Below are positions 4,207 through 56,336 of a stretch of DNA of 64,000 bases, piece by piece. The stretch is from Exiguobacterium mexicanum (GTDB lineage Bacteria > Bacillota > Bacilli > Exiguobacteriales > Exiguobacteriaceae), in contig NZ_CP040676.1 of assembly GCF_005960665.1 (NCBI RefSeq), positions 1,250,501 through 1,314,500 of the forward strand, read 5' to 3'. Under the pieces are notes generated by a model. The model was not told the DNA's origin, searched no databases, and saw nothing but the letters and a program-made list of their open reading frames with translations. The stretch's first letter is position 1, and each line of letters begins with the position of its first letter. Made by a program: the position numbers and the translations under genes.

Positions 4207-5847
4207 ATGAATAAATTTAAGGTAAACATTTCAGGAATGACTTGTACGGGTTGTGAAAAACACGTAGAATCAGCACTTGAAAAGATAGGTGCTAAAAATA
4301 TTGAGTCTAGTTATCGTCGTGGTGAAGCAGTATTTGAACTGCCCGATGATATTGAGGTTGAAAGTGCAATAAAGGCGATTGATGAAGCAAATTACCAAGC
4401 CGGAGAAATTGAAGAAGTATCATCACTAGAAAACGTGGCGTTAATTAATGAAGACAATTATGACCTTCTTATTATTGGTTCTGGTGCTGCTGCCTTTTCT
4501 TCGGCAATTAAAGCTATAGAATACGGTGCAAAAGTTGGAATGATTGAGCGTGGAACGGTTGGGGGAACCTGTGTGAATATTGGCTGTGTTCCGTCAAAAA
4601 CTCTTCTTAGGGCAGGGGAAATCAATCATTTATCAAAAGACAATCCGTTTATAGGTTTACAAACATCCGCTGGAGAAGTGGATTTAGCTAGTTTAATCAC
4701 GCAAAAGGATAAATTGGTGAGCGAACTTCGGAATCAAAAATATATGGATTTAATTGATGAATATAATTTTGATTTAATTAAAGGTGAAGCAAAATTCGTT
4801 GATGCTAGTACGGTTGAGGTCAATGGGGCAAAGTTATCTGCAAAACGCTTTTTAATTGCAACAGGTGCATCGCCTTCGTTGCCCCAAATTTCAGGACTTG
4901 AAAAAATGGACTATTTAACTAGTACAACACTTCTTGAGTTAAAGAAAATACCAAAACGATTAACTGTAATTGGTTCAGGATACATTGGAATGGAGCTTGG
5001 ACAACTATTTCATCATTTAGGTTCAGAAATAACGCTTATGCAAAGAAGTGAGCGACTTTTAAAGGAGTATGATCCTGAGATTTCAGAGTCAGTTGAAAAA
5101 GCGTTAATTGAACAGGGTATAAACCTTGTCAAAGGGGCAACTTTTGAGCGTGTTGAACAAAGTGGAGAGATAAAAAGGGTTTACGTAACAGTAAATGGCA
5201 GTAGAGAAGTCATTGAATCAGATCAGTTACTTGTTGCCACTGGAAGAAAACCAAATACGGATTCTTTAAATTTAAGTGCAGCAGGTGTTGAAACTGGAAA
5301 AAATAATGAAATCCTAATCAATGATTTTGGTCAAACAAGTAATGAAAAGATTTATGCAGCAGGAGATGTGACTTTAGGACCACAATTTGTATATGTAGCA
5401 GCCTATGAAGGTGGAATTATTACTGATAATGCTATTGGTGGATTAAACAAAAAAATAGATTTATCGGTAGTTCCTGCTGTTACGTTTACGAATCCGACGG
5501 TTGCAACGGTTGGTTTAACAGAAGAACAAGCAAAAGAGAAAGGGTATGATGTGAAGACATCTGTATTACCTTTAGATGCTGTTCCAAGAGCAATTGTAAA
5601 CCGTGAAACAACCGGTGTATTTAAACTAGTAGCAGATGCAGAAACACTAAAAGTATTAGGGGTTCATATTGTATCTGAGAATGCAGGAGATGTCATCTAT
5701 GCAGCATCATTAGCTGTTAAATTTGGCTTAACGATAGAAGATTTAACAGAAACCCTAGCACCATATTTAACAATGGCTGAAGGGCTAAAATTAGCTGCAC
5801 TTACGTTCGATAAAGATATTTCGAAATTATCTTGTTGTGCAGGCTAA
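4207..5847 (+). CDS. merA: Mercury(II) reductase MerA
   Basis: A 546-residue cytosolic flavoenzyme that reduces Hg(II) to volatile Hg(0) with NADPH. It has one N-terminal heavy-metal-associated domain (GMTCTGC, C13 and C16), a FAD-binding GSGAAAFS, the redox-active pair C122/C127 in [12 protein letters not shown], a central NADPH fold ([10 protein letters not shown]) and the C-terminal vicinal cysteine pair C543-C544 in SCCAG that hands Hg to the active site. All needed residues are present. AAAGGAGC precedes ATG 4207. It follows merR by 28 bases. No merT, merP or merB lies next to it, which is unusual for a complete operon. Confidence 0.95.
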
Positions 5848-5997
5848 GGGAACTTTTTTACAACTCCCTATTCAAGTGAACCAGCTAATGCTTTAAGGGA
5901 TTTTCTAAGTGCATTTGTGGTCACAAAAATAATTTAACACTGATGATTTCGACATCAAATCTATAATTGATACCTTAACACCGCAGAGTAATAAAGG

Positions 5998-7329
5998 ATG
6001 AATAATATGTCAGACTTATTATCCCTACCAGACATTAAAACAATAGAACCGCCACAAGAAAATGAAACCGATATGATATTTAAAGTTGAAGCAGTCGGAC
6101 CACCTGAACGTTGTCCTGAATGTGGTTTTGACAAGTTGTACAAACACAGTTCAAGAAATCAACTAATTATGGATTTGCCCATTCGTTAAAAGCGAGTGGG
6201 CTTACAATTGAACCGTAGACGATACAAGTGTCGTGAATGCGGATCTACCTTCTGGGAACGCCTAATATCTGTAGATGAAAAGCGTAGTATGACCAAAAGG
6301 CTTTTAAAGTCCATTCAAGAGCAATCCATGTCTAAGACCTTTGTAGAAGTCGCAGAAAGCGTTGGTGTTGACGAGAAAACCATTAGGAACGTTTTTAAGG
6401 ACTATGTGGCACTCAAAGAACGTGAATACCAGTTTGAAACTCCTAAGTGGCTTGGGATAGACGAGATACATATTATCCGTAGACCTCGGCTTGTATTGAC
6501 TAATATTGAACGCAGGACTATTTATGACATCAAGCCTAACCGTAACAAGGAAACAGTCATCCAACGTCTTTCAGAAATCAGTGACAGGACTTACATTGAG
6601 TACGTCACAATGGATATGTGGAAGCCCTACAAAGACGCAGTGAACACTATCCTTCCACACGCTAAAGTTGTCGTAGATAAGTTTCATGTAGTTAGAATGG
6701 CTAATCAAGCCTTAGATAACGTCAGAAAGTCTTTGAAAGCCCATATGAGCCAAAAAGAAAGACGTACCCTTATGCGTGAAAGGTTTATCCTTCTAAAGCG
6801 TAAACACGATCTAAATGAACGTGAATCATTCCTCTTAGATACTTGGTTAGGTAATCTTCCTGCTTTAAAAGAAGCCTATGAACTCAAAGAAGAGTTTTAC
6901 TGGATATGGGATACTCCTGATCCAGATGAAGGTCATCTTCGTTATAGTCAATGGAGACACCGTTGCATGTCCAGCAACTCTAAAGACGCATATAAAGACC
7001 TCGTGAGAGCCGTAGACAACTGGCATGTCGAAATATTCAACTACTTTGATAAAAGGCTCACTAATGCTTATACGGAGTCAATTAACAGCATTATTAGGCA
7101 GGTAGAGCGAATGGGTAGAGGTTACTCGTTTGATGCCTTACGAGCCAAAATCCTTTTCAATGAGAAGCTCCATAAAAAGCGTAAGCCACGATTTAATTCA
7201 AGTGCTTTCAATAAAGCTATGTTATACGATACTTTCAATTGGTATGAAGTGAATGATCACGACATTACAGACAACTTTGGTGTCGATTTTTCCACACTTA
7301 TTAAGAATTTGGAGAAGGGTGATTTATAA
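5998..7329 (+). pseudogene. ISL3-family transposase interrupted by an in-frame stop
   Basis: Two pieces in the same frame, 5998-6189 (63 residues, zinc-finger part CPECGF) and 6196-7329 (377 residues), are separated only by a TAA at 6187-6189. Read through, they give a normal ISL3 transposase: a second CRECG finger, an HTH region, and the catalytic residues in WLGIDEIH, YVTMDMW and NAYTESINS. The family usually reads a non-stop codon in LPIRxKRVGLQLNRRRYKC, so the stop is probably a point mutation. A GTG at 6196 could restart translation but would lose the first zinc ribbon. Clear terminal inverted repeats were not recognised. Confidence 0.82.
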
Positions 7330-46307: not shown

Positions 46308-46334
46308 GGTTTACATAATAAGTTATCGTAAACC
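46308..46334 (+). repeat. dif-like recombination site, copy 1
   Basis: GGTTTACATAATAAGTTAT followed by CGTAAACC. It overlaps the last codons and stop of the recombinase gene. It matches copy 2 at 48612-48638 in 25 of 27 positions, in the same orientation. Read on the minus strand, the right arm TTATTATGTAAACC resembles the XerD half of Bacillus dif as I remember it. Confidence 0.65.
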
Positions 46335-47333
46335 GGTTAACGCTTGTTTTTTCTTCTCGTCACCGATATGGGCATATACTTGCGTCGTCGCCACCGACTC
46401 GTGTCCGAGCAGTTGTTGGATCGTCAAGACGTCGACCCCGCTCATGGCGAGACGAGAGGCGAACGTGTGTCGCAATTTATGCGGCGTGACCTGCTTGTAC
46501 GTCAAAAATGGCAGATATGGCTTCAGGCGGTCGATGTGCCCTTTCAACGCGTGCTGCACCGTGCGGACCGAGATCCGTTTGCCTTTCTCGGAGCAGAACA
46601 AGGGACCTGCGCCTTGACCACGATATCCGTCAAGGAGCGGCTCGAGTGGAGAGGCGATTGGGATGACGCGTTCCTTGTTCCCTTTCCCGATGACCCGGAT
46701 CGTCCCGTTCTCTCGGTCGATGTCGTTCCAATCAAGGCCGACCAGTTCAGAGACACGCATCCCGGTCAACCCGAGCAGTTGGATCATCAGGAAGTCCCGG
46801 TCCCGATTTCGTTCGTACCAGCTCGCTTCGCGGTCGGACATGCCGACGTTGCTGCGGACGAGCGTCGAGAAGTCGAGCCATTCCTGTTCGGTCAAATAGA
46901 CCGGGTTGCGCTTGGCGCGCTTCGGTCGCTCGACGGCCTGGAACGGGTTGTGCGCCGTGATGCCCGTCTCGATCAGATGGTTGAACAGCGACTGCATCGA
47001 CGACAGTTTGCGGTTGATCACGCTCGGTGCGTTGTCTAGCTCGAGGGCGAGGTACGTCGCGTACGCCTCGGCCCCGGCATGGTCGAACTCGACGAACGAT
47101 TCGATTTCGACCGATGACGGGTCGACCTCGGATGCACTCGCGGTCTCGACCCAGCGGAAGAAATCCAAAAAATCATACAGATAGCGCTGCGCGGTCTGCT
47201 CCGAGTAGTGTTTGGCGGCCATGTGGTTCAAGAACCGTTGGATGAAGCCCGGCATGCGTTCATAGCCGCTCAAGTTGAAACGTCTCGCGTCGACTTTCGT
47301 CGGTGATTGGCCGAGCTGGCGGAATATACTCAA
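46323..47333 (-). CDS. Tyrosine recombinase, Xer type
   Basis: A 336-residue site-specific recombinase. An N-terminal SAM-like DNA-binding region precedes the catalytic domain with R193 (TGMRVSEL), K217 (GKGNKER), H285/R288 (HKLRHTFAS), H311 (LLGHES) and nucleophile Y320 (TQVYAH). All six needed residues are present. It is longer than XerC/XerD (~300), and its C-terminal end (HIGDEKKKQALTGL) recalls XerS of streptococci. TTG 47333 follows GAGGAG, 15 bases after the GGDEF stop. Its 3' end lies in a dif-like repeat. It may be the chromosomal dimer resolvase or the integrase of a small element. Confidence 0.9.
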   Translation of the reverse strand: MSIFRQLGQSPTKVDARRFNLSGYERMPGFIQRFLNHMAAKHYSEQTAQRYLYDFLDFFRWVETASASEVDPSSVEIESFVEFDHAGAEAYATYLALELDNAPSVINRKLSSMQSLFNHLIETGITAHNPFQAVERPKRAKRNPVYLTEQEWLDFSTLVRSNVGMSDREASWYERNRDRDFLMIQLLGLTGMRVSELVGLDWNDIDRENGTIRVIGKGNKERVIPIASPLEPLLDGYRGQGAGPLFCSEKGKRISVRTVQHALKGHIDRLKPYLPFLTYKQVTPHKLRHTFASRLAMSGVDVLTIQQLLGHESVATTQVYAHIGDEKKKQALTGLR

Positions 47334-47348
47334 AAAATCGCTCCTCGC

Positions 47349-48404
47349 TTAATGATGGATTGACGTGACGATGCGGTCTTTCCCGGCCTGTTTCCCGGCC
47401 CGGAGCCGGTCGTCCGCCTCTTTGACGAGCGTATCGACATCTTTGAACCCATGCCACGTCGTGACACCGAATGTCAACGTCACACTGAGCCGACGTCCCT
47501 CGTAAATCGTCTCGAGTGATTTGATTTGTTGTCGCAACCGGTCGATTGTTTCCGCTGCCTCGTCCTCGCTTTGACCCGCCAAGAACAAGAGAAATTCTTC
47601 CCCACCCCAACGGACGGCGATGCTGTCTGTTCGCGCGAGCGCGGAGGCGACTTGTTTGAGCACGAGGTCGCCGCAATCATGGCCGTGTTGTTCGTTAAAC
47701 GACTTGAAATGGTCGATGTCAGCGAGAGCGATGGTATATGGGCGTCCCGATACGACAGCTTCGCGGATGGCCTCCTCGACCAAACGATATCCGGTCGTTC
47801 GATTATAGAGCCCGGTCAGCCCGTCACGGGAGGCGAGGGTATGCAGCCGTTCGTTCGACCGTTCGAGCTCGGACGTCACCTCGACGACAGCCCCTTCAAA
47901 GATGAGGGAGAGTCCGGCGACCAAGGCGATCGTCGCGAGTAAGCACGTCACCCCAATGACTTGCTCCAGGGTCGGACTGAGCGGCGACGTCCCGTCCGTC
48001 ACGGTCACATATAAATAGCCGTAGATTCCCATGGCGAGCATCGTCGAGGCGATGCGAATGGCCCGGCTGACGTTCGGCATGAAGAACACGCCATAGGCGA
48101 CCATGAGGATGAAATAGTGGACGTTCGCGCCCCAGCCGAGGACGATGGTCGAGATGATGGCGTTATAGACGACCTCGACGAAGAGACCGATGAAGAACGT
48201 CCGATAATATCGTTTATGTACAAAATAAAAAGACAACGTGTAATAGAGAACGCTGAGTATGTTCGACCAGGCGAGGGTCGTGACGTCAAGTCGCCAAAAC
48301 GTGATCAAGAACACGACATGGATGACCCAAGCGAACACGTTCCCGTAAAAAGTGATGCGGTAATTATATAGTGTACCGCGACGTTCCTCATAGGCTGTTC
48401 CCAC
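47349..48404 (-). CDS. Membrane GGDEF protein (putative diguanylate cyclase)
   Basis: A 351-residue protein with about six N-terminal membrane helices (to about residue 185) and a C-terminal GGDEF domain whose active motif is GGEEF at 267-271, preceded by DGLTGLYNR and ADIDHFKSFNEQHGHDCGD. The catalytic residues are intact, so c-di-GMP synthesis is likely. The inhibitory I-site normally RxxD is RTDS, with the Asp displaced, so product inhibition may be lost. GTG 48404 is chosen because AGGAGGTG lies before it; an upstream ATG 48425 lies on that same Shine-Dalgarno. It is followed by the recombinase gene in the same operon. Confidence 0.88.
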   Translation of the reverse strand: MGTAYEERRGTLYNYRITFYGNVFAWVIHVVFLITFWRLDVTTLAWSNILSVLYYTLSFYFVHKRYYRTFFIGLFVEVVYNAIISTIVLGWGANVHYFILMVAYGVFFMPNVSRAIRIASTMLAMGIYGYLYVTVTDGTSPLSPTLEQVIGVTCLLATIALVAGLSLIFEGAVVEVTSELERSNERLHTLASRDGLTGLYNRTTGYRLVEEAIREAVVSGRPYTIALADIDHFKSFNEQHGHDCGDLVLKQVASALARTDSIAVRWGGEEFLLFLAGQSEDEAAETIDRLRQQIKSLETIYEGRRLSVTLTFGVTTWHGFKDVDTLVKEADDRLRAGKQAGKDRIVTSIHH

Positions 48405-48512
48405 GCGAACACCTCCTTTTTTCATTATACCGAACCCATTCTCATTTGCCCATGCCTATCCAACAATCGATTAAAATAGACACGCGCAAACGCCTTTAAT
48501 TCGCGCGTATGA

Positions 48513-48538
48513 TTGCGTGAAATAGATATTTCACGCAA
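48513..48538. promoter_or_regulatory. Perfect 12-bp inverted repeat upstream of the GGDEF-recombinase operon
   Basis: TTGCGTGAAATA and TATTTCACGCAA are separated by GA, about 110 bases before the GGDEF start. It could be an operator or an accessory recombinase-binding site. Confidence 0.5.
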
Positions 48539-48611
48539 CGTTCGTTCACACGTCATTTCCATCCGAGACACACATCGACCTGCGAACCAGAAAAATAATT
48601 TCATATATCAC

Positions 48612-48638
48612 GGTTTACATAATAAGTTATGGTGAACC
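48612..48638 (+). repeat. dif-like recombination site, copy 2
   Basis: GGTTTACATAATAAGTTAT followed by GGTGAACC. The first 19 bases are identical to copy 1, and two of the last eight differ. It lies between the recombinase operon and the yneT-parE-parC genes. Confidence 0.65.
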
Positions 48639-48756: not shown

Positions 48757-49161
48757 ATGGACGATCAACGTTTGAAACAATGGCTCACCGAAGCGAAGAC
48801 GATCGCTGTCGTCGGCGTGTCAGCGAACCCGAACAAGACCGCGAACCAAATCGCAGACTATCTGCTGTTGCAAGGTTACACGGTCATCCCTGTCAATCCG
48901 ACGCTCGAGACGTGGAACGGACGCAAAGTCTATCCGACGGTCGAGAGCATCCCGGGGCGCGTCGATATCGTCGACGTCTTCCGACGCAATGAGTATTTGG
49001 CCGGTGTGGCCGAAGATGCCGTCCGACATGGGGATGTCGGTCTCGTCTTCAACCAGCTCGGGCTCACCAGCCCGGACGCCGAGCGGATCGCTCGCGATGC
49101 CGGACTCGACTACATCGAAAATCGATGCATCTATGTCGAGCACGCCCGCCTTCTCGGTTAA
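48757..49161 (+). CDS. CoA-binding domain protein, YneT/YccU-like
   Basis: A 134-residue Rossmann-fold protein: IAVVGVSANPNKTANQIADYLLLQGYTVIPVNPTLETWNGRKVYPTVESIP with the later FRRNEYLAGVAEDAV and ENRCIYVEH. This is the CoA_binding_2 family. In Bacillus subtilis the homolog yneT precedes parE, and the same order occurs here. AAAGGGGG lies before the ATG. Function of the family is not settled. Confidence 0.87.
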   Translation: MDDQRLKQWLTEAKTIAVVGVSANPNKTANQIADYLLLQGYTVIPVNPTLETWNGRKVYPTVESIPGRVDIVDVFRRNEYLAGVAEDAVRHGDVGLVFNQLGLTSPDAERIARDAGLDYIENRCIYVEHARLLG

Positions 49162-49192: not shown

Positions 49193-49290
49193 CACGAGCC
49201 CCGCTCGCGGAGGGAGGCTTGCCAGAATCCAAAAACAGCTATACAATAGGATAGAAAAACGAACGTGTGTTCGAAATTGAGGTGACGAAG

Positions 49291-51258
49291 ATGTCAACAG
49301 ACTTATTTAATTACAATGAAGACGCCATCCAGGTGCTCGAAGGACTGACTGCTGTCCGGAAACGTCCGGGGATGTATATCGGTTCGACCGACCATCGCGG
49401 CTTGCACCATCTCGTCTATGAGATCGTCGATAACGCGATCGATGAGGCGCTCGCCGGATTCGGTGGCCAAATCGACGTGACCATCCATAAAGATGACGCG
49501 ATCACGGTACGCGACCACGGGCGTGGTATGCCGACCGGGATGCACGCCTCCGGGAAACCGACGCCAGAGGTCATCTTCACGGTCCTCCACGCCGGCGGTA
49601 AGTTCGGCCAAGGTGGCTACAAGACGTCAGGTGGACTCCACGGGGTCGGCGCCTCGGTCGTGAACGCACTCTCGAGCAAGGTCCTCGTCACGATTTATCG
49701 CGACGGCAAAGTGTTCGAGCAGACGTTTGCCGACGGCGGGATTCCGCAGACGACGCTCCTCGAGACCGGAAAGACGCGTCAGACGGGGACGAGCGTCTAC
49801 TTCAAACCGGACGCCTCGATCTTCTCGACGACGACATATAACTACGACACGCTCGCTGAACGGCTCCGTGAATCGGCATTCCTGTTAAAAGGATTGACGA
49901 TCACGTTGACGGACGAGCGTTCGGATAAAGAAGAGACGTTCCATTACGAGGAAGGGATTGCCGAGTTCGTCCAATATTTGAACGACGACAAGGCGACGCT
50001 TCATCCGATCGTCTACTTCGAAGGGACGGAGAACGATATCGAGCTAGAGCTCGCCTTCCAGTTCACGGACGCCTATTCTGAGAACGTCCTCTCGTTCGTC
50101 AACAACGTCCGGACTCGTGACGGCGGCACGCACGAGATCGGCGCCAAGACGGCGATGACCCGCATCGTGAATGAATACGCCCGTAAGAACGGATTGTTGA
50201 AAGAAAAAGACAAGAACCTCGACGGCGGTGATGTCCGCGAAGGCTTGACGCTCATCGTCTCGGTACGGATCCCGGAAGAGTTCCTCCAGTTCGAGGGACA
50301 GACGAAATCGAAACTCGGTTCGCCCGAGGCACGTACGAGCGCTGATGGTGTCATGGCCAAACAACTGACGATTTTCCTCGAGGAGAACCCGCAGATGGCG
50401 ACGATGCTCATCAAGAAGGCGATCCGCGCCGCCCAGGCCCGCGAAGCCGCCCGGAAAGCCCGGGAAGAGGCGCGCAACGGCAAGAAGAAGAAACGTTCGA
50501 GCATCTTGAACGGAAAACTGACGCCGGCGACGTCGAAGAACGCCGCCAAGAACGAACTGTTCCTCGTCGAAGGTGACTCGGCCGGCGGTTCGGCTAAACA
50601 GGGCCGTGACCGGACGTTCCAGGCCATCCTGCCGCTGCGCGGGAAGGTCATCAACTCGGAGAAGTCGAAACTTCAGGACATCATGAAGAATGAGGAAATC
50701 AATACGATCATCCACGCGATTGGGGCCGGGATCGGCCACGACTTCGACCTTGAGGACTGCAATTTCGACAAAATCATCATCATGACCGATGCCGATACGG
50801 ACGGGGCACACATCCAAGTGCTCCTGTTGACGTTCTTCTTCCGTTATATGCGCCCTCTCGTCGAGGCCGGCAAAGTGTTCGTCGCCTTGCCGCCGCTCTA
50901 TCGGATTTCGAAAGGGAAAGGCAAGTCGGAACAGTTCGAGTACGCTTGGGACGAAGAGGCGCTCGAGAAGCTCGTCAAAGTGTATAAGAAGGGCTATATC
51001 CTCCAACGCTACAAAGGTCTCGGTGAGATGAACGCCGACCAGCTATGGGAGACGACGATGAACCCCGACACACGGACGCTCATCCGTGTCACGGTCGACG
51101 ATGCTGCCGTCGCCGACAAGCGCGTCTCGGTGCTCATGGGGGACAATGTCGCCCATCGCCGGGAGTGGATCGAGGAGAACGTCGCCTTCGGCCTCCAGGA
51201 AGATGATTCGATCATCGCCAATGAACACGTGACTAAAGCGATTGAGGAAGTGATGTAA
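49291..51258 (+). CDS. parE: DNA topoisomerase IV subunit B
   Basis: The 655-residue ATPase subunit of topoisomerase IV, which decatenates daughter chromosomes. The GHKL ATP site shows YEIVDNAIDEAL, RDHGRGMP and GGLHGVGASVVNALS, and the TOPRIM domain shows FLVEGDSAGGSAKQGRDR, PLRGKVIN and IMTDADTDGAHI. GAGGTGA precedes ATG 49291; the frame extends to 49267 without support. It is identified as parE rather than gyrB by the QTKSKLGSPEAR segment and by the adjacent parC, whose start follows two bases after the stop. Confidence 0.94.
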   Translation: MSTDLFNYNEDAIQVLEGLTAVRKRPGMYIGSTDHRGLHHLVYEIVDNAIDEALAGFGGQIDVTIHKDDAITVRDHGRGMPTGMHASGKPTPEVIFTVLHAGGKFGQGGYKTSGGLHGVGASVVNALSSKVLVTIYRDGKVFEQTFADGGIPQTTLLETGKTRQTGTSVYFKPDASIFSTTTYNYDTLAERLRESAFLLKGLTITLTDERSDKEETFHYEEGIAEFVQYLNDDKATLHPIVYFEGTENDIELELAFQFTDAYSENVLSFVNNVRTRDGGTHEIGAKTAMTRIVNEYARKNGLLKEKDKNLDGGDVREGLTLIVSVRIPEEFLQFEGQTKSKLGSPEARTSADGVMAKQLTIFLEENPQMATMLIKKAIRAAQAREAARKAREEARNGKKKKRSSILNGKLTPATSKNAAKNELFLVEGDSAGGSAKQGRDRTFQAILPLRGKVINSEKSKLQDIMKNEEINTIIHAIGAGIGHDFDLEDCNFDKIIIMTDADTDGAHIQVLLLTFFFRYMRPLVEAGKVFVALPPLYRISKGKGKSEQFEYAWDEEALEKLVKVYKKGYILQRYKGLGEMNADQLWETTMNPDTRTLIRVTVDDAAVADKRVSVLMGDNVAHRREWIEENVAFGLQEDDSIIANEHVTKAIEEVM

Positions 51259-51260
51259 CG

Positions 51261-53666
51261 ATGTCGACGATTCAACACATTTTAAACTTGTCGCTCGAAC
51301 AGGTCGTCGGTGACCGCTTCGGGCGTTACTCGAAATATATCATCCAGGACCGGGCCCTCCCGGACGCGCGCGATGGGCTCAAACCCGTTCAGCGCCGCAT
51401 CCTGTATGCGATGCACCATGAAGGTAACACGAACGAGAAACCGTACCGCAAATCGGCCAAGACGGTCGGTAACGTCATCGGTAACTATCACCCGCACGGT
51501 GATAGTTCCGTCTATGAGGCGATGGTACGCCTATCGCAGGACTGGAAGTTGCGTTACCCGCTCATCGACATGCACGGGAACAACGGCTCGATGGACGGCG
51601 ACTCGGCTGCCGCGATGCGGTATACCGAGGCCCGTCTGTCGAAGATTGCCGGCGTCATGCTGACGTCGATCTCGAAGAACACGGTCGACTATACGCCGAA
51701 CTTCGACGATTCGACCGAAGAGCCGCTCGTTTTGCCGTCACTCCTCCCGAACCTGCTCATGAACGGGACGACGGGGATCTCTGCGGGTTATGCGACCGAG
51801 ATCCCGCCGCACAACTTGACCGAGGTGCTCAACCTCGCCATCGCCCGCTTGAAAGGTGAGGTCGAGACGACGAATGACGCATTCCGTTATATGCAAGGAC
51901 CTGACTTCCCGTCTGGCGGGATTGTCATGGGCAAAGACGGCATCTTGAAGGCGTTCGAGACCGGAAAAGGCAAGGTCATCATCCGTGCCAAATCGGTCAT
52001 CGAGCCACTTAAGGGAGGCCGTGAACAGATCACCATCACCGAACTCCCGTATGAGGTGAACAAGGCGAACCTCGTCAAGAAGATGGAAGAGCTCCGTCTC
52101 GACCGCAAAGTCGAAGGTGTCGCCGAAGTCCGTGACGAGACCGACCGGACCGGCGTCCGCGTCGTCATCGAATTGAAGAAGGAAGCCGATGCGGAAGGTG
52201 TGCTCCATTTCTTCTTGAAGCATACCGATCTGCAGCTCGCCTATAACTACAACATGGTCGCCATCGTCAACCGGACACCGAAACAGATGGGACTCTTGTC
52301 GATCATCGACGCGTACTTGAAGCACGTCGAAGAGGTCGTCACCCGTCGCACGACGTTCGAGCTCGATCAGGCGAAGAAACGCGCCGAAATCGTCGACGCG
52401 CTCGAACAGGCCATCTCGGTCCTTGACGAGACGCTCGAACTCATCCGTTCGGCCAAAGACAAGTCCGAGGCGAAACAGAAGCTCATGGAGCGGTTCTCGT
52501 TCACGGACCGTCAAGCCGAAGCGGTCGTCATGCTCCAACTGTATCGGTTGACGAACACGGATATCGTCGAGCTCCAAAAAGAGGCGAAGGCGCTCCAAAA
52601 AGAGATTGCTCGCCTCGCCAACATCTTGAACGTCGACGCGACGAAACGGAAGCTCATCTCGAAAGAGTTGACCGCGCTCCGTGACGAGTTCGGCGACGCA
52701 CGGCGCTCGGTCATCGAATCGGAAGTCGAAGAGTTGAAACTGAAGACAGAGGTCATGATCGCCGTCGAAGAGACGATGGTGTTCGTCAGCCGCGACGGGT
52801 ACGTCAAACGTTCATCGATGCGCTCATATGGCGCCTCGAGCGACGAGATGCCGGAGATGAAGCAGAAAGACCGTCCCGTCCTCGTCACCCAGGCGATGAC
52901 GACGGACCACTTGCTCGTCTGGACGAACAAAGGCAGCTACTTGCTCATCCCGGTCCATCAGATTCCAGAGTCGAAATGGAAAGACGCCGGTCAGCATGTC
53001 GCCAACCTCGTGCCAATCGAAGGCGAACAAGTCGTTTCGGCCGATGTCGTCTCGACGTTCGACACCGACGCGCACTGCCTGTTCGTCACGCGTGAAGGCA
53101 TGGTCAAACGGACGCCGCTCCGTGACTATGACGCCCAACGCAAGTCGAAGGCGCTCATGGCGCTCAAGTTAAAAGGTGACGATGAGGTCGTCTTCGCTGG
53201 CATCAGTGACGGTCCAGGACAACTGTTCCTCGTCTCTGAGCGCGGCTATGGCCTCTGGTTCAAAGAAGACGATGTTCCGGTCGTCGGCCAACGTGCCGCC
53301 GGCGTCAAAGCGATGAACTTGAAAGATGGCGATGTGGTCGCCGATGCCTTCGCCTTCTTCACACCGCCACTGTTCGTCCTCGTGACGCAACGTGGAGCGG
53401 TCAAGAAGATGAAGCTCGAGGATCAGTTCGACTGCACGAACCGCAACTTGCGCGGGACGATGCTCATCCGCGAAGTCAAATCGAAACCGCACCAGATTCG
53501 TCGTGTGCTCCCGGTCCATGACGATGAGACGCTCCACATCATCGGGAAAGAGAAAGCGAAGACGGTCAAGACGAAGCAATTGACGCTCTTGGACCGCTAC
53601 GCCAACGGCTCATTCGTGTTTGATGAAGAGACGTTCGGTGAGATTGAGGACGTGTATCTCGATTGA
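51261..53666 (+). CDS. parC: DNA topoisomerase IV subunit A
   Basis: The 801-residue breakage-reunion subunit. The catalytic Tyr is in AAAMRYTEARLS. The quinolone-resistance region reads YHPHGDSSVYEAMVR, which carries the wild-type Ser and Glu, so no known quinolone-resistance substitution is visible there. A long central coiled coil is followed by a beta-pinwheel C-terminal domain with repeats such as VSRDGYVKRSSMRSY and VTREGMVKRTPLRDY. It forms an operon with parE. A terminator follows at 53680. Confidence 0.95.
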   Translation: MSTIQHILNLSLEQVVGDRFGRYSKYIIQDRALPDARDGLKPVQRRILYAMHHEGNTNEKPYRKSAKTVGNVIGNYHPHGDSSVYEAMVRLSQDWKLRYPLIDMHGNNGSMDGDSAAAMRYTEARLSKIAGVMLTSISKNTVDYTPNFDDSTEEPLVLPSLLPNLLMNGTTGISAGYATEIPPHNLTEVLNLAIARLKGEVETTNDAFRYMQGPDFPSGGIVMGKDGILKAFETGKGKVIIRAKSVIEPLKGGREQITITELPYEVNKANLVKKMEELRLDRKVEGVAEVRDETDRTGVRVVIELKKEADAEGVLHFFLKHTDLQLAYNYNMVAIVNRTPKQMGLLSIIDAYLKHVEEVVTRRTTFELDQAKKRAEIVDALEQAISVLDETLELIRSAKDKSEAKQKLMERFSFTDRQAEAVVMLQLYRLTNTDIVELQKEAKALQKEIARLANILNVDATKRKLISKELTALRDEFGDARRSVIESEVEELKLKTEVMIAVEETMVFVSRDGYVKRSSMRSYGASSDEMPEMKQKDRPVLVTQAMTTDHLLVWTNKGSYLLIPVHQIPESKWKDAGQHVANLVPIEGEQVVSADVVSTFDTDAHCLFVTREGMVKRTPLRDYDAQRKSKALMALKLKGDDEVVFAGISDGPGQLFLVSERGYGLWFKEDDVPVVGQRAAGVKAMNLKDGDVVADAFAFFTPPLFVLVTQRGAVKKMKLEDQFDCTNRNLRGTMLIREVKSKPHQIRRVLPVHDDETLHIIGKEKAKTVKTKQLTLLDRYANGSFVFDEETFGEIEDVYLD

Positions 53667-56234: not shown

Positions 56235-56336
<102 letters not shown>

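Follow-up and report, generated by a model that had tools for sequence, protein, structure and literature searches.

A third Xer-type recombinase and its candidate palindromic site beside XerCD/dif at the Exiguobacterium terminus

Genes and sites at the xerX locus

The DNA analysed here, called the window, is a stretch of 64,000 nucleotides of Exiguobacterium mexicanum (NCBI RefSeq assembly GCF_005960665.1, contig NZ_CP040676.1, positions 1,250,501 to 1,314,500). In bacteria with XerC and XerD, the resolution of chromosome and plasmid dimers is normally credited to that single pair. The window encodes a third Xer-type tyrosine recombinase, found close to a 26-bp palindrome and two 27-bp sites that resemble dif. 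The labels XerX (gene xerX) for the recombinase and difX for the palindrome were coined in this analysis. The features are listed below by their positions in the window.

46308..46334, minus strand: site 1, dif-like; its XerD-type arm reads TTATGTAAACC on the minus strand, and the site overlaps the stop codon of xerX
46323..47333, minus strand: xerX, third Xer-type tyrosine recombinase, 336 aa (Pfam Phage_integrase, 4e-37)
47349..48425, minus strand, co-directional with xerX: GGDEF protein, probable diguanylate cyclase (Pfam GGDEF, 4e-34)
48513..48538, no strand: palindrome TTGCGTGAAATAGATATTTCACGCAA, 26 bp, proposed XerX recombination site difX
48612..48638, minus strand: site 2, second dif-like site, between the palindrome and yneT
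48757..49161, plus strand: yneT-like CoA-binding protein, flanking gene (Pfam CoA_binding_2)
49267..53666, plus strand: parE-parC, topoisomerase IV, conserved neighbours (NCBIfam TIGR01058 and TIGR01061, over cut-off)
56288..56315, plus strand: canonical XerCD dif TTTACTGATAATATATGTTATGTTAACT, directly after a hairpin-like inverted repeat

Sites 1 and 2 had been described in a first-pass annotation of this DNA, and most of its description was reproduced. The two 27-bp sites lie at the coordinates it gave, agree at 25 of 27 positions with the first 19 identical, point in the same direction and start 2304 bp apart. As claimed, site 1 overlaps the stop codon of a complete Xer-type tyrosine recombinase (open reading frame 46323-47333, minus strand), both sites look like dif and their right half looks like an XerD arm. 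The recombinase and the GGDEF protein are the sole Pfam-matched open reading frames between the sites, and the order yneT-parE-parC beyond site 2 was supported by Pfam for yneT and by the NCBIfam cut-offs for parE and parC. Site 2 is indeed upstream of the yneT-like frame, at a distance of 118 bp and not 119. The repeats and genes were thus real, but the palindrome (48513-48538) and the canonical dif (56288-56315) had been overlooked.

The palindrome is perfect over its 26 bp and lies between the GGDEF start and site 2; none would be expected in the window by chance. Its conservation was followed in 19 genomes of the same genus (this one included) and 18 of a sister genus, together the 37 family genomes, and in a wider set of 398 genomes of the class, in which the family has 38. 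All 26 columns are invariant within the genus and 22 of 26 within the sister genus, while other columns average 71% and 76% identity, respectively. When up to 3 mismatches were allowed, the palindrome occurred once per chromosome in 37/37 family genomes and in 0/24 others. When up to 2 were allowed, it was found in 38 of the 398 class genomes, which are exactly the 38 family members, and in none of the other 360. XerX and the palindrome co-occur in all 38. The downstream gene starts at a different distance from the palindrome in each of the two genera.

An xerX ortholog is present in 19/19 genomes of the genus and 18/18 of the sister genus, adjoining yneT-parE-parC at all 37 loci, and no empty locus was found. 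The GGDEF gene is at this locus in 19/19 and 0/18 genomes, respectively. The first-pass annotation had offered a minimal Xer-mobilised element, with direct dif-like attachment sites and a c-di-GMP switch aboard, as one explanation, and in this genome the recombinase is in fact flanked by two direct repeats. Such an element should vary in presence and leave an empty site in relatives. The empty single site that the annotation had suggested looking for in syntenic regions was seen in none of the 37 family genomes, all of which carry the recombinase and both sites; moreover, the GGDEF gene is missing from the sister-genus locus, the orientation of site 2 flips, and a canonical dif lies elsewhere. 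Part of what the annotation itself had named as speaking against its proposal, sites fixed in relatives and a consensus dif elsewhere, was therefore observed, and a mobile element is highly improbable. Because site 2 varies in orientation and the sister-genus locus lacks the GGDEF gene, it is also unlikely that a conserved function depends on the repeats being direct or on the GGDEF gene. The other suggestion, a dif locus with its own recombinase, came close, except that the likely site of this recombinase is the palindrome and not sites 1 and 2.

Exactly three Xer proteins matched at E<=1e-20 in each of the 37 family genomes, and in this genome they are XerX, XerD and an XerC-like protein. 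XerD scored 362 bits, over its cut-off; the XerC-like protein scored 300 bits, below the cut-off of 335, with XerC as its best match. XerX scored 189.4 bits for XerC (TIGR02224) and 175.4 bits for XerD (TIGR02225), below the cut-offs of 335 and 330, and 154.6 bits for XerS (NF003462), below the cut-off of 267; it is also below the NCBIfam XerA cut-off. Its residues R193, K217, H285, R288, H311 and Y320, to which we presume catalytic roles, are invariant in 18 of 18 aligned sequences. In the phylogenetic tree, XerX and 12 distant homologs form their own clade (support 95/93). With the midpoint root, XerX and XerS split from XerC/XerD at 100/99, and another set of rows gave 88/74. The kinship of XerX with XerS is tentative, because it depends on the midpoint root and the program gave a long-branch warning. 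The tree was built without five XerS rows, the unassigned Xer protein of genome G039, six of the thirteen Exiguobacterium XerX rows and one disrupted homolog (L221). The AlphaFold model of XerX (pLDDT 80, pTM 0.53), which is informative for the fold alone, gave low-TM matches to XerA, Tn1549 integrase, XerH and lambda Int. Searches of phage and plasmid proteins gave XerX homologs that, among the matches listed, are all below 60% identity.

Two further observations concern the other Xer proteins. The Exiguobacterium XerC (G000:C4:1591998-1592705) is divergent and sits on a long branch in the trees, and this divergence may be linked with the changed XerC arm in dif. Proteins over the cut-off of the XerS model were found in 32 of 151 class genomes, large-genome Bacilli among them, and XerS-type enzymes may be spread wider than streptococci and lactococci.

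The terminus, the canonical dif and the dif-like sites

The position of xerX relative to the terminus was estimated from its distance to dnaA. As a fraction of the contig, this distance is 0.496, 0.492 and 0.484 in genomes G000, G006 and G013, and 0.486, 0.492 and 0.501 in G003, G011 and G022. GC skew is positive in 11/11 sampled stretches left of the window, negative in 9/9 right of it, and near zero in the part of the window right of the palindrome. The dnaA distance of 0.484-0.501 in six genomes and the skew switch indicate that the locus is at the terminus, as the GC-skew check proposed in the first-pass annotation was meant to decide. In its companion check on FtsK-orienting polar sequences (KOPS) and SpoIIIE polarity, the sample contained too few copies of GAGAAGGG and GGGNAGGG for a polarity reading.

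A canonical dif, TTTACTGATAATATATGTTATGTTAACT, was found with a relaxed dif pattern at 56288-56315, which is 7.7 kb from site 2 and near the GC-skew switch. It or a close variant is present in 33/37 family genomes at up to 2 mismatches, and it lies 6-10 kb from xerX wherever both share a contig. The pattern had no match in G002, G013, G015 and G036; G013 and G036 have an XerD arm at the matching place. The B. subtilis dif used as query gave no match in the 37 family genomes at up to 3 mismatches. After this null search, sites 1 and 2 were initially favoured as the chromosomal dif, and the idea was dropped on account of the conserved dif 7.7 kb away. The suggestion that one of the two repeats is the chromosomal dif, already present in the first-pass annotation, thus gives way to a better dif nearby.

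Sites 1 and 2 are the only matches in a whole-genome search at up to 3 mismatches, and a reversed-pattern control gave 0 matches. The mean identity of site 1 is 91% in the 19 genomes of the genus and 92% in the 18 of the sister genus, compared with 60% and 77% over the next 68 columns. Site 1 overlaps the xerX stop codon in 37/37 family genomes, and site 2 was found between xerX/GGDEF and yneT in 37/37. In the sister genus, the XerD-type arm of site 2 is clear and the outer part of its weaker arm is not conserved. This XerD-type arm runs in the same direction as that of site 1 in 12/19 genomes of the genus and in the opposite direction in 7/19, and it is opposite in 18/18 genomes of the sister genus. 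A canonical XerCD dif would have a 6-bp centre and occur once per chromosome. Here there are two sites, and the spacing from GATAA to TTATGT in site 1 is 4 bp in the genus and 5 bp in the sister genus, versus 6 bp in the canonical dif. A sequence resembling one arm of sites 1 and 2 also occurs in the xerD promoter spacer (L132:1168-1178 and its orthologs in the genus), where GTTTACATAA is present in 18/18 genomes of the genus aligned and GGTTTACATAA in 12. Autoregulation by XerD is a weak lead, since ATAA is lacking in 3 sister-genus genomes and the element lies within the promoter spacer.

In the intergenic region between xerX and yneT of the sister genus (e.g., L056-L073), site 2 has on either side a strongly conserved block with the sequence CTCAGTTGCATCGA or a close variant of it. 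An Rfam scan of four loci, including the sister-genus loci L024 and L029, gave no match. In genome G006 (L043, ~5519-7278), an additional stretch of about 1.7 kb separates orfB from xerX; it begins within a terminator-like repeat that adjoins site 1, and site 1 is intact. In genome G008 (L045/L012), the GGDEF protein is 100% and YneT 99% identical to the window and the first ~100 XerX residues are nearly identical, with 85% for the whole XerX and 81% for PatB. This is either a mosaic locus broken inside xerX or contamination, which amounts to 8% in that assembly.

Variant cores on small plasmids and palindromes beside distant homologs

Elsewhere in the same genome, near matches to the palindrome were found on the small contigs C1 and C2 only. 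These were taken as plasmids because they have backbones common to Exiguobacterium plasmids. A core TTGCGNGRA(N6)ATTTCACGCAA was found in 6/6 examined Exiguobacterium plasmids below 5 kb, namely C1, C2, pEspA, pMC3, pEprTSS-3 and pEXIG01, with the right half ATTTCACGCAA intact in all six. The last of these is from E. sibiricum, a species that we take to belong with the sister genus. The plasmid core differs from the chromosomal one in the centre and one arm, and none of the six has an XerD arm. In all six, the word AAAGTTTGTGAAA begins exactly 65 bp before the core start. The small plasmids thus show what characterises cer-type sites, an Xer core with an accessory sequence at a fixed distance, in 6/6 cases. 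As a separate observation, the accessory word TTTGTGAAA (L085, L086, L099, L100, L101, L193) resembles the core half-site TTGCGTGAAA and, judged by this likeness, may be an extra XerX half-site.

The core was absent from 6/6 larger plasmids of 20-69 kb (pMC2, pEspB, pB, p2, pE52 and C3; pE52 was scanned over 50,000 of 52,136 bases and C3 over 68,000 of 68,746). The best matches in these plasmids had 5-6 mismatches, and those in 150 chromosomal control pieces had 4-8. A 'recombinase family protein' is annotated on all five annotated large plasmids and on none of the four annotated small ones, whose gene tables are incomplete. As a general rule given in passages of PMC5357621, small plasmids rely on the host Xer enzyme and large ones carry their own, and the presence of the core in small but not large plasmids fits this rule.

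Outside the family, the XerX profile found one strong full-length relative, in genome G310, and three weaker matches (E ~1e-52). A palindrome just upstream of the G310 gene was detected by a repeat scan and not by a pattern. In total, 13 distant XerX homologs were collected, spanning nine genera and six families. Twelve of these genes are intact. In all 12, TGAAAY(N4)ATTTCA, which is part of a longer and sometimes imperfect inverted repeat, either overlaps the open-frame start or ends at most 44 bp upstream of it. These palindromes match that of Exiguobacterium at 19-22 of 26 positions. The same upstream pattern was seen in 0/18 XerS-type genes (several near-identical), 0/8 XerC/XerD genes and 0/1 unassigned Xer gene, and in 22 of 2400 shuffled regions. 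The remaining homolog, L221 in genome G406, has a partial open frame of 230 aa, and its palindrome lies 408 bp upstream of that frame, roughly where a full-length gene would have it.

The distant loci were also inspected by eye for dif-like sites. At 7/13 loci a short-spacer dif-like site is found close to the 3' end of xerX, at positions ranging from 9 bp before this end to 302 bp after it; at the other 6/13, nothing beyond single arms with a mismatch was seen within 700 bp. The xerX gene is 15.4 kb from a canonical dif in G310 and 20.5 kb in G464, and GC skew there is zero or changing sign. G310 also has a similar site with a short spacer, 0.8 kb from dif and 14.6 kb from xerX.

Readings of the locus and related systems

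From the gene anatomy, the conservation and co-occurrence of XerX with the palindrome, and the plasmid cores, we infer that XerX binds and recombines the palindrome. We consider it likely, judging by sequence comparison, that the two form a separate single-recombinase Xer/dif system at the terminus, distinct from XerCD/dif. The locus has what such a system would be expected to have: intact Xer residues, a conserved single-copy inverted-repeat site beside the gene, and a position at the terminus in Exiguobacterium, with two of five distant genomes near a skew switch. An XerX homodimer would probably occupy both arms of the palindrome (48513-48538) and recombine two palindrome copies. Such recombination would resolve multimers of small plasmids and perhaps chromosome dimers too. 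On the plasmids, a variant core would act together with an accessory sequence at a fixed distance, in the manner of ColE1 cer. Since this core differs in the centre and one arm, recombination between plasmid and chromosome would be avoided. Sites 1 and 2 are conserved, dif-like and, in the case of site 2, labile in orientation, and they therefore look like docking sites of XerD or XerCD rather than recombination partners. They would most likely be short-spacer docking sites of XerD, or of XerC and XerD, with an architectural or regulatory function such as unloading SMC at the terminus, and would not serve the excision of xerX.

Several points weigh against a separate XerX/palindrome system. 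Five of the six small plasmids first surfaced through the palindrome, the core or the DNA around it; pEXIG01 was retrieved by backbone similarity, independently of the core. The plasmid core pattern and the distant upstream pattern were both composed after the sequences had been viewed, the plasmid cores share no more than 20-21 of 26 positions with the chromosomal palindrome, and a plasmid-type core was found in just 1 of 61 genomes searched. The plasmid sample comprises six small and six large ones, with seven further listed Exiguobacterium plasmids outside it. Outside the family, XerX is patchy (13/298 genomes in the order of G310), one of the weaker profile matches (L205) showed no such palindrome in the repeat scan, and G606, G489 and G628 showed no GC-skew switch within the 80-100 kb examined. 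Moreover, a canonical dif coexists with XerX, so that the resolution of chromosome dimers may not need XerX, and the almost symmetric centre of the palindrome would give weak directionality.

The palindrome also lies near the xerX or GGDEF promoter and could be merely an operator, with xerX transcription controlled from it by XerX or some other DNA-binding protein and with no chromosomal recombination. This would suit its position, close to the xerX start in the distant homologs and, in Exiguobacterium, near the promoter side of the GGDEF gene or xerX. An operator would, on the other hand, leave the variant core in 6/6 small plasmids with its cer-like fixed accessory spacing to be explained, and in the two genera the palindrome stands at unequal distances from the start of the downstream gene. 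Proximity to a gene is also shared by the sites of XerS and XerH, which are likewise gene-adjacent in the account given in parts of PMC5357621. An operator alone is therefore unlikely.

Concerning sites 1 and 2, a fairly plausible alternative, to which we give somewhat less than even chances, is that they bind XerD to unload SMC at the terminus as in B. subtilis, with the flanking of xerX incidental. Such XerD sites of B. subtilis were reportedly described by Karaboja in 2021. Unloading of SMC by XerD at the B. subtilis terminus is covered in the passages available from PMC12322038 and PMC8242196. The exact XerD arm TTATGTNAACY occurs three times in the window (dif, site 1 and site 2), all within 10 kb. 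The chromosomal sample (400 kb) and plasmid C3 (68 kb) have none, and these three are among eight in the genome. The G310 site close to dif and distant from xerX points the same way. Genome-wide, on the other hand, the eight arms compare with 7 for the reversed pattern, and ten genomes gave 72 versus 120, indicating that the motif is clustered at this terminus without genome-wide enrichment. Moreover, the dif-like site near the xerX 3' end in 7/13 distant loci suggests a link to xerX itself. In another reading, XerC/XerD or XerX bound to sites 1 and 2 would control xerX, e.g., by looping from the promoter side to the 3' end; in its favour, the two sites flank xerX in both genera and are better conserved than the DNA around them. 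We hold this control to be rather doubtful, as by eye site 2 has no evident core promoter overlap, and 6/13 distant xerX loci have no dif-like 3' site seen within 700 bp.

The proposed XerX/palindrome system was compared with known Xer systems. XerS/difSL of streptococci and lactococci and XerH/difH of Campylobacter and Helicobacter are similar in that one recombinase has its site beside its gene (PMC5357621, in part); this recombinase is also somewhat longer than XerC and XerD. The tree also puts XerX and XerS apart from XerC/XerD if the midpoint root holds. However, XerX forms a separate clade and scores 154.6 against the 267 bits of the XerS model, and the palindrome is unlike the difSL half-sites quoted in that portion of PMC5357621. 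Unlike XerS and XerH genomes, those with XerX also keep XerC, XerD and a canonical dif. XerH was compared through PDB matches only. XerL/dif of Legionellales, in the sections of PMC9765430 that describe it, resembles XerX in having a single recombinase, a palindromic site near the GC-skew maximum and a plasmid variant. It differs as the main dimer-resolution system there, whereas XerCD/dif is also present with XerX, and its authors contrast XerL with systems whose dif always adjoins the gene, as the palindrome does with xerX (same sections of PMC9765430). The likeness of XerX and XerL is one of description.

ColE1 cer and other plasmid resolution sites share with the small Exiguobacterium plasmids a core, an upstream accessory sequence, fixed spacing and small plasmid size. 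The lack of a listed recombinase on the four annotated plasmids, within their incomplete gene tables, is a further likeness, whereas the arms of the Exiguobacterium plasmid core differ from XerCD arms. As to XerCD dif, the XerD-type arm in sites 1 and 2 and the GATAA block in site 1 are as in the family dif (56288-56315), but the blocks are 4-5 bp and not 6 bp apart, the sites are doubled, and the orientation of site 2 is not conserved. The clustering of XerD-type arms at the terminus is shared, at the level of sequence, with the SMC-unloading XerD sites of B. subtilis; the binder of sites 1 and 2, XerD or XerCD, is what we infer from these arms. In the titles, abstract openings and some passages of the literature seen, no description of a third Xer system or dif site in Exiguobacterium was found.

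Tentatively, and with rather less assurance than for the separate system itself, these comparisons could be combined into one picture. Exiguobacterium and scattered Bacilli might keep XerCD/dif and XerX/difX side by side at one terminus, with the small plasmids using XerX/difX to resolve their multimers and with XerC/XerD-type sites that bracket or abut xerX coupling the two. The short-spacer dif-like sites raise the question of XerD-type sites at the termini of Bacilli. In two genera that retain XerC, XerD and dif, a third Xer recombinase and a palindromic site of its own have become fixed, and a variant core is carried on their plasmids. If confirmed, XerX and its palindrome would be a compact symmetric recombination system that explains the monomeric state of small Exiguobacterium plasmids, and would indicate that single-recombinase systems can arise beside XerCD rather than by replacing it.

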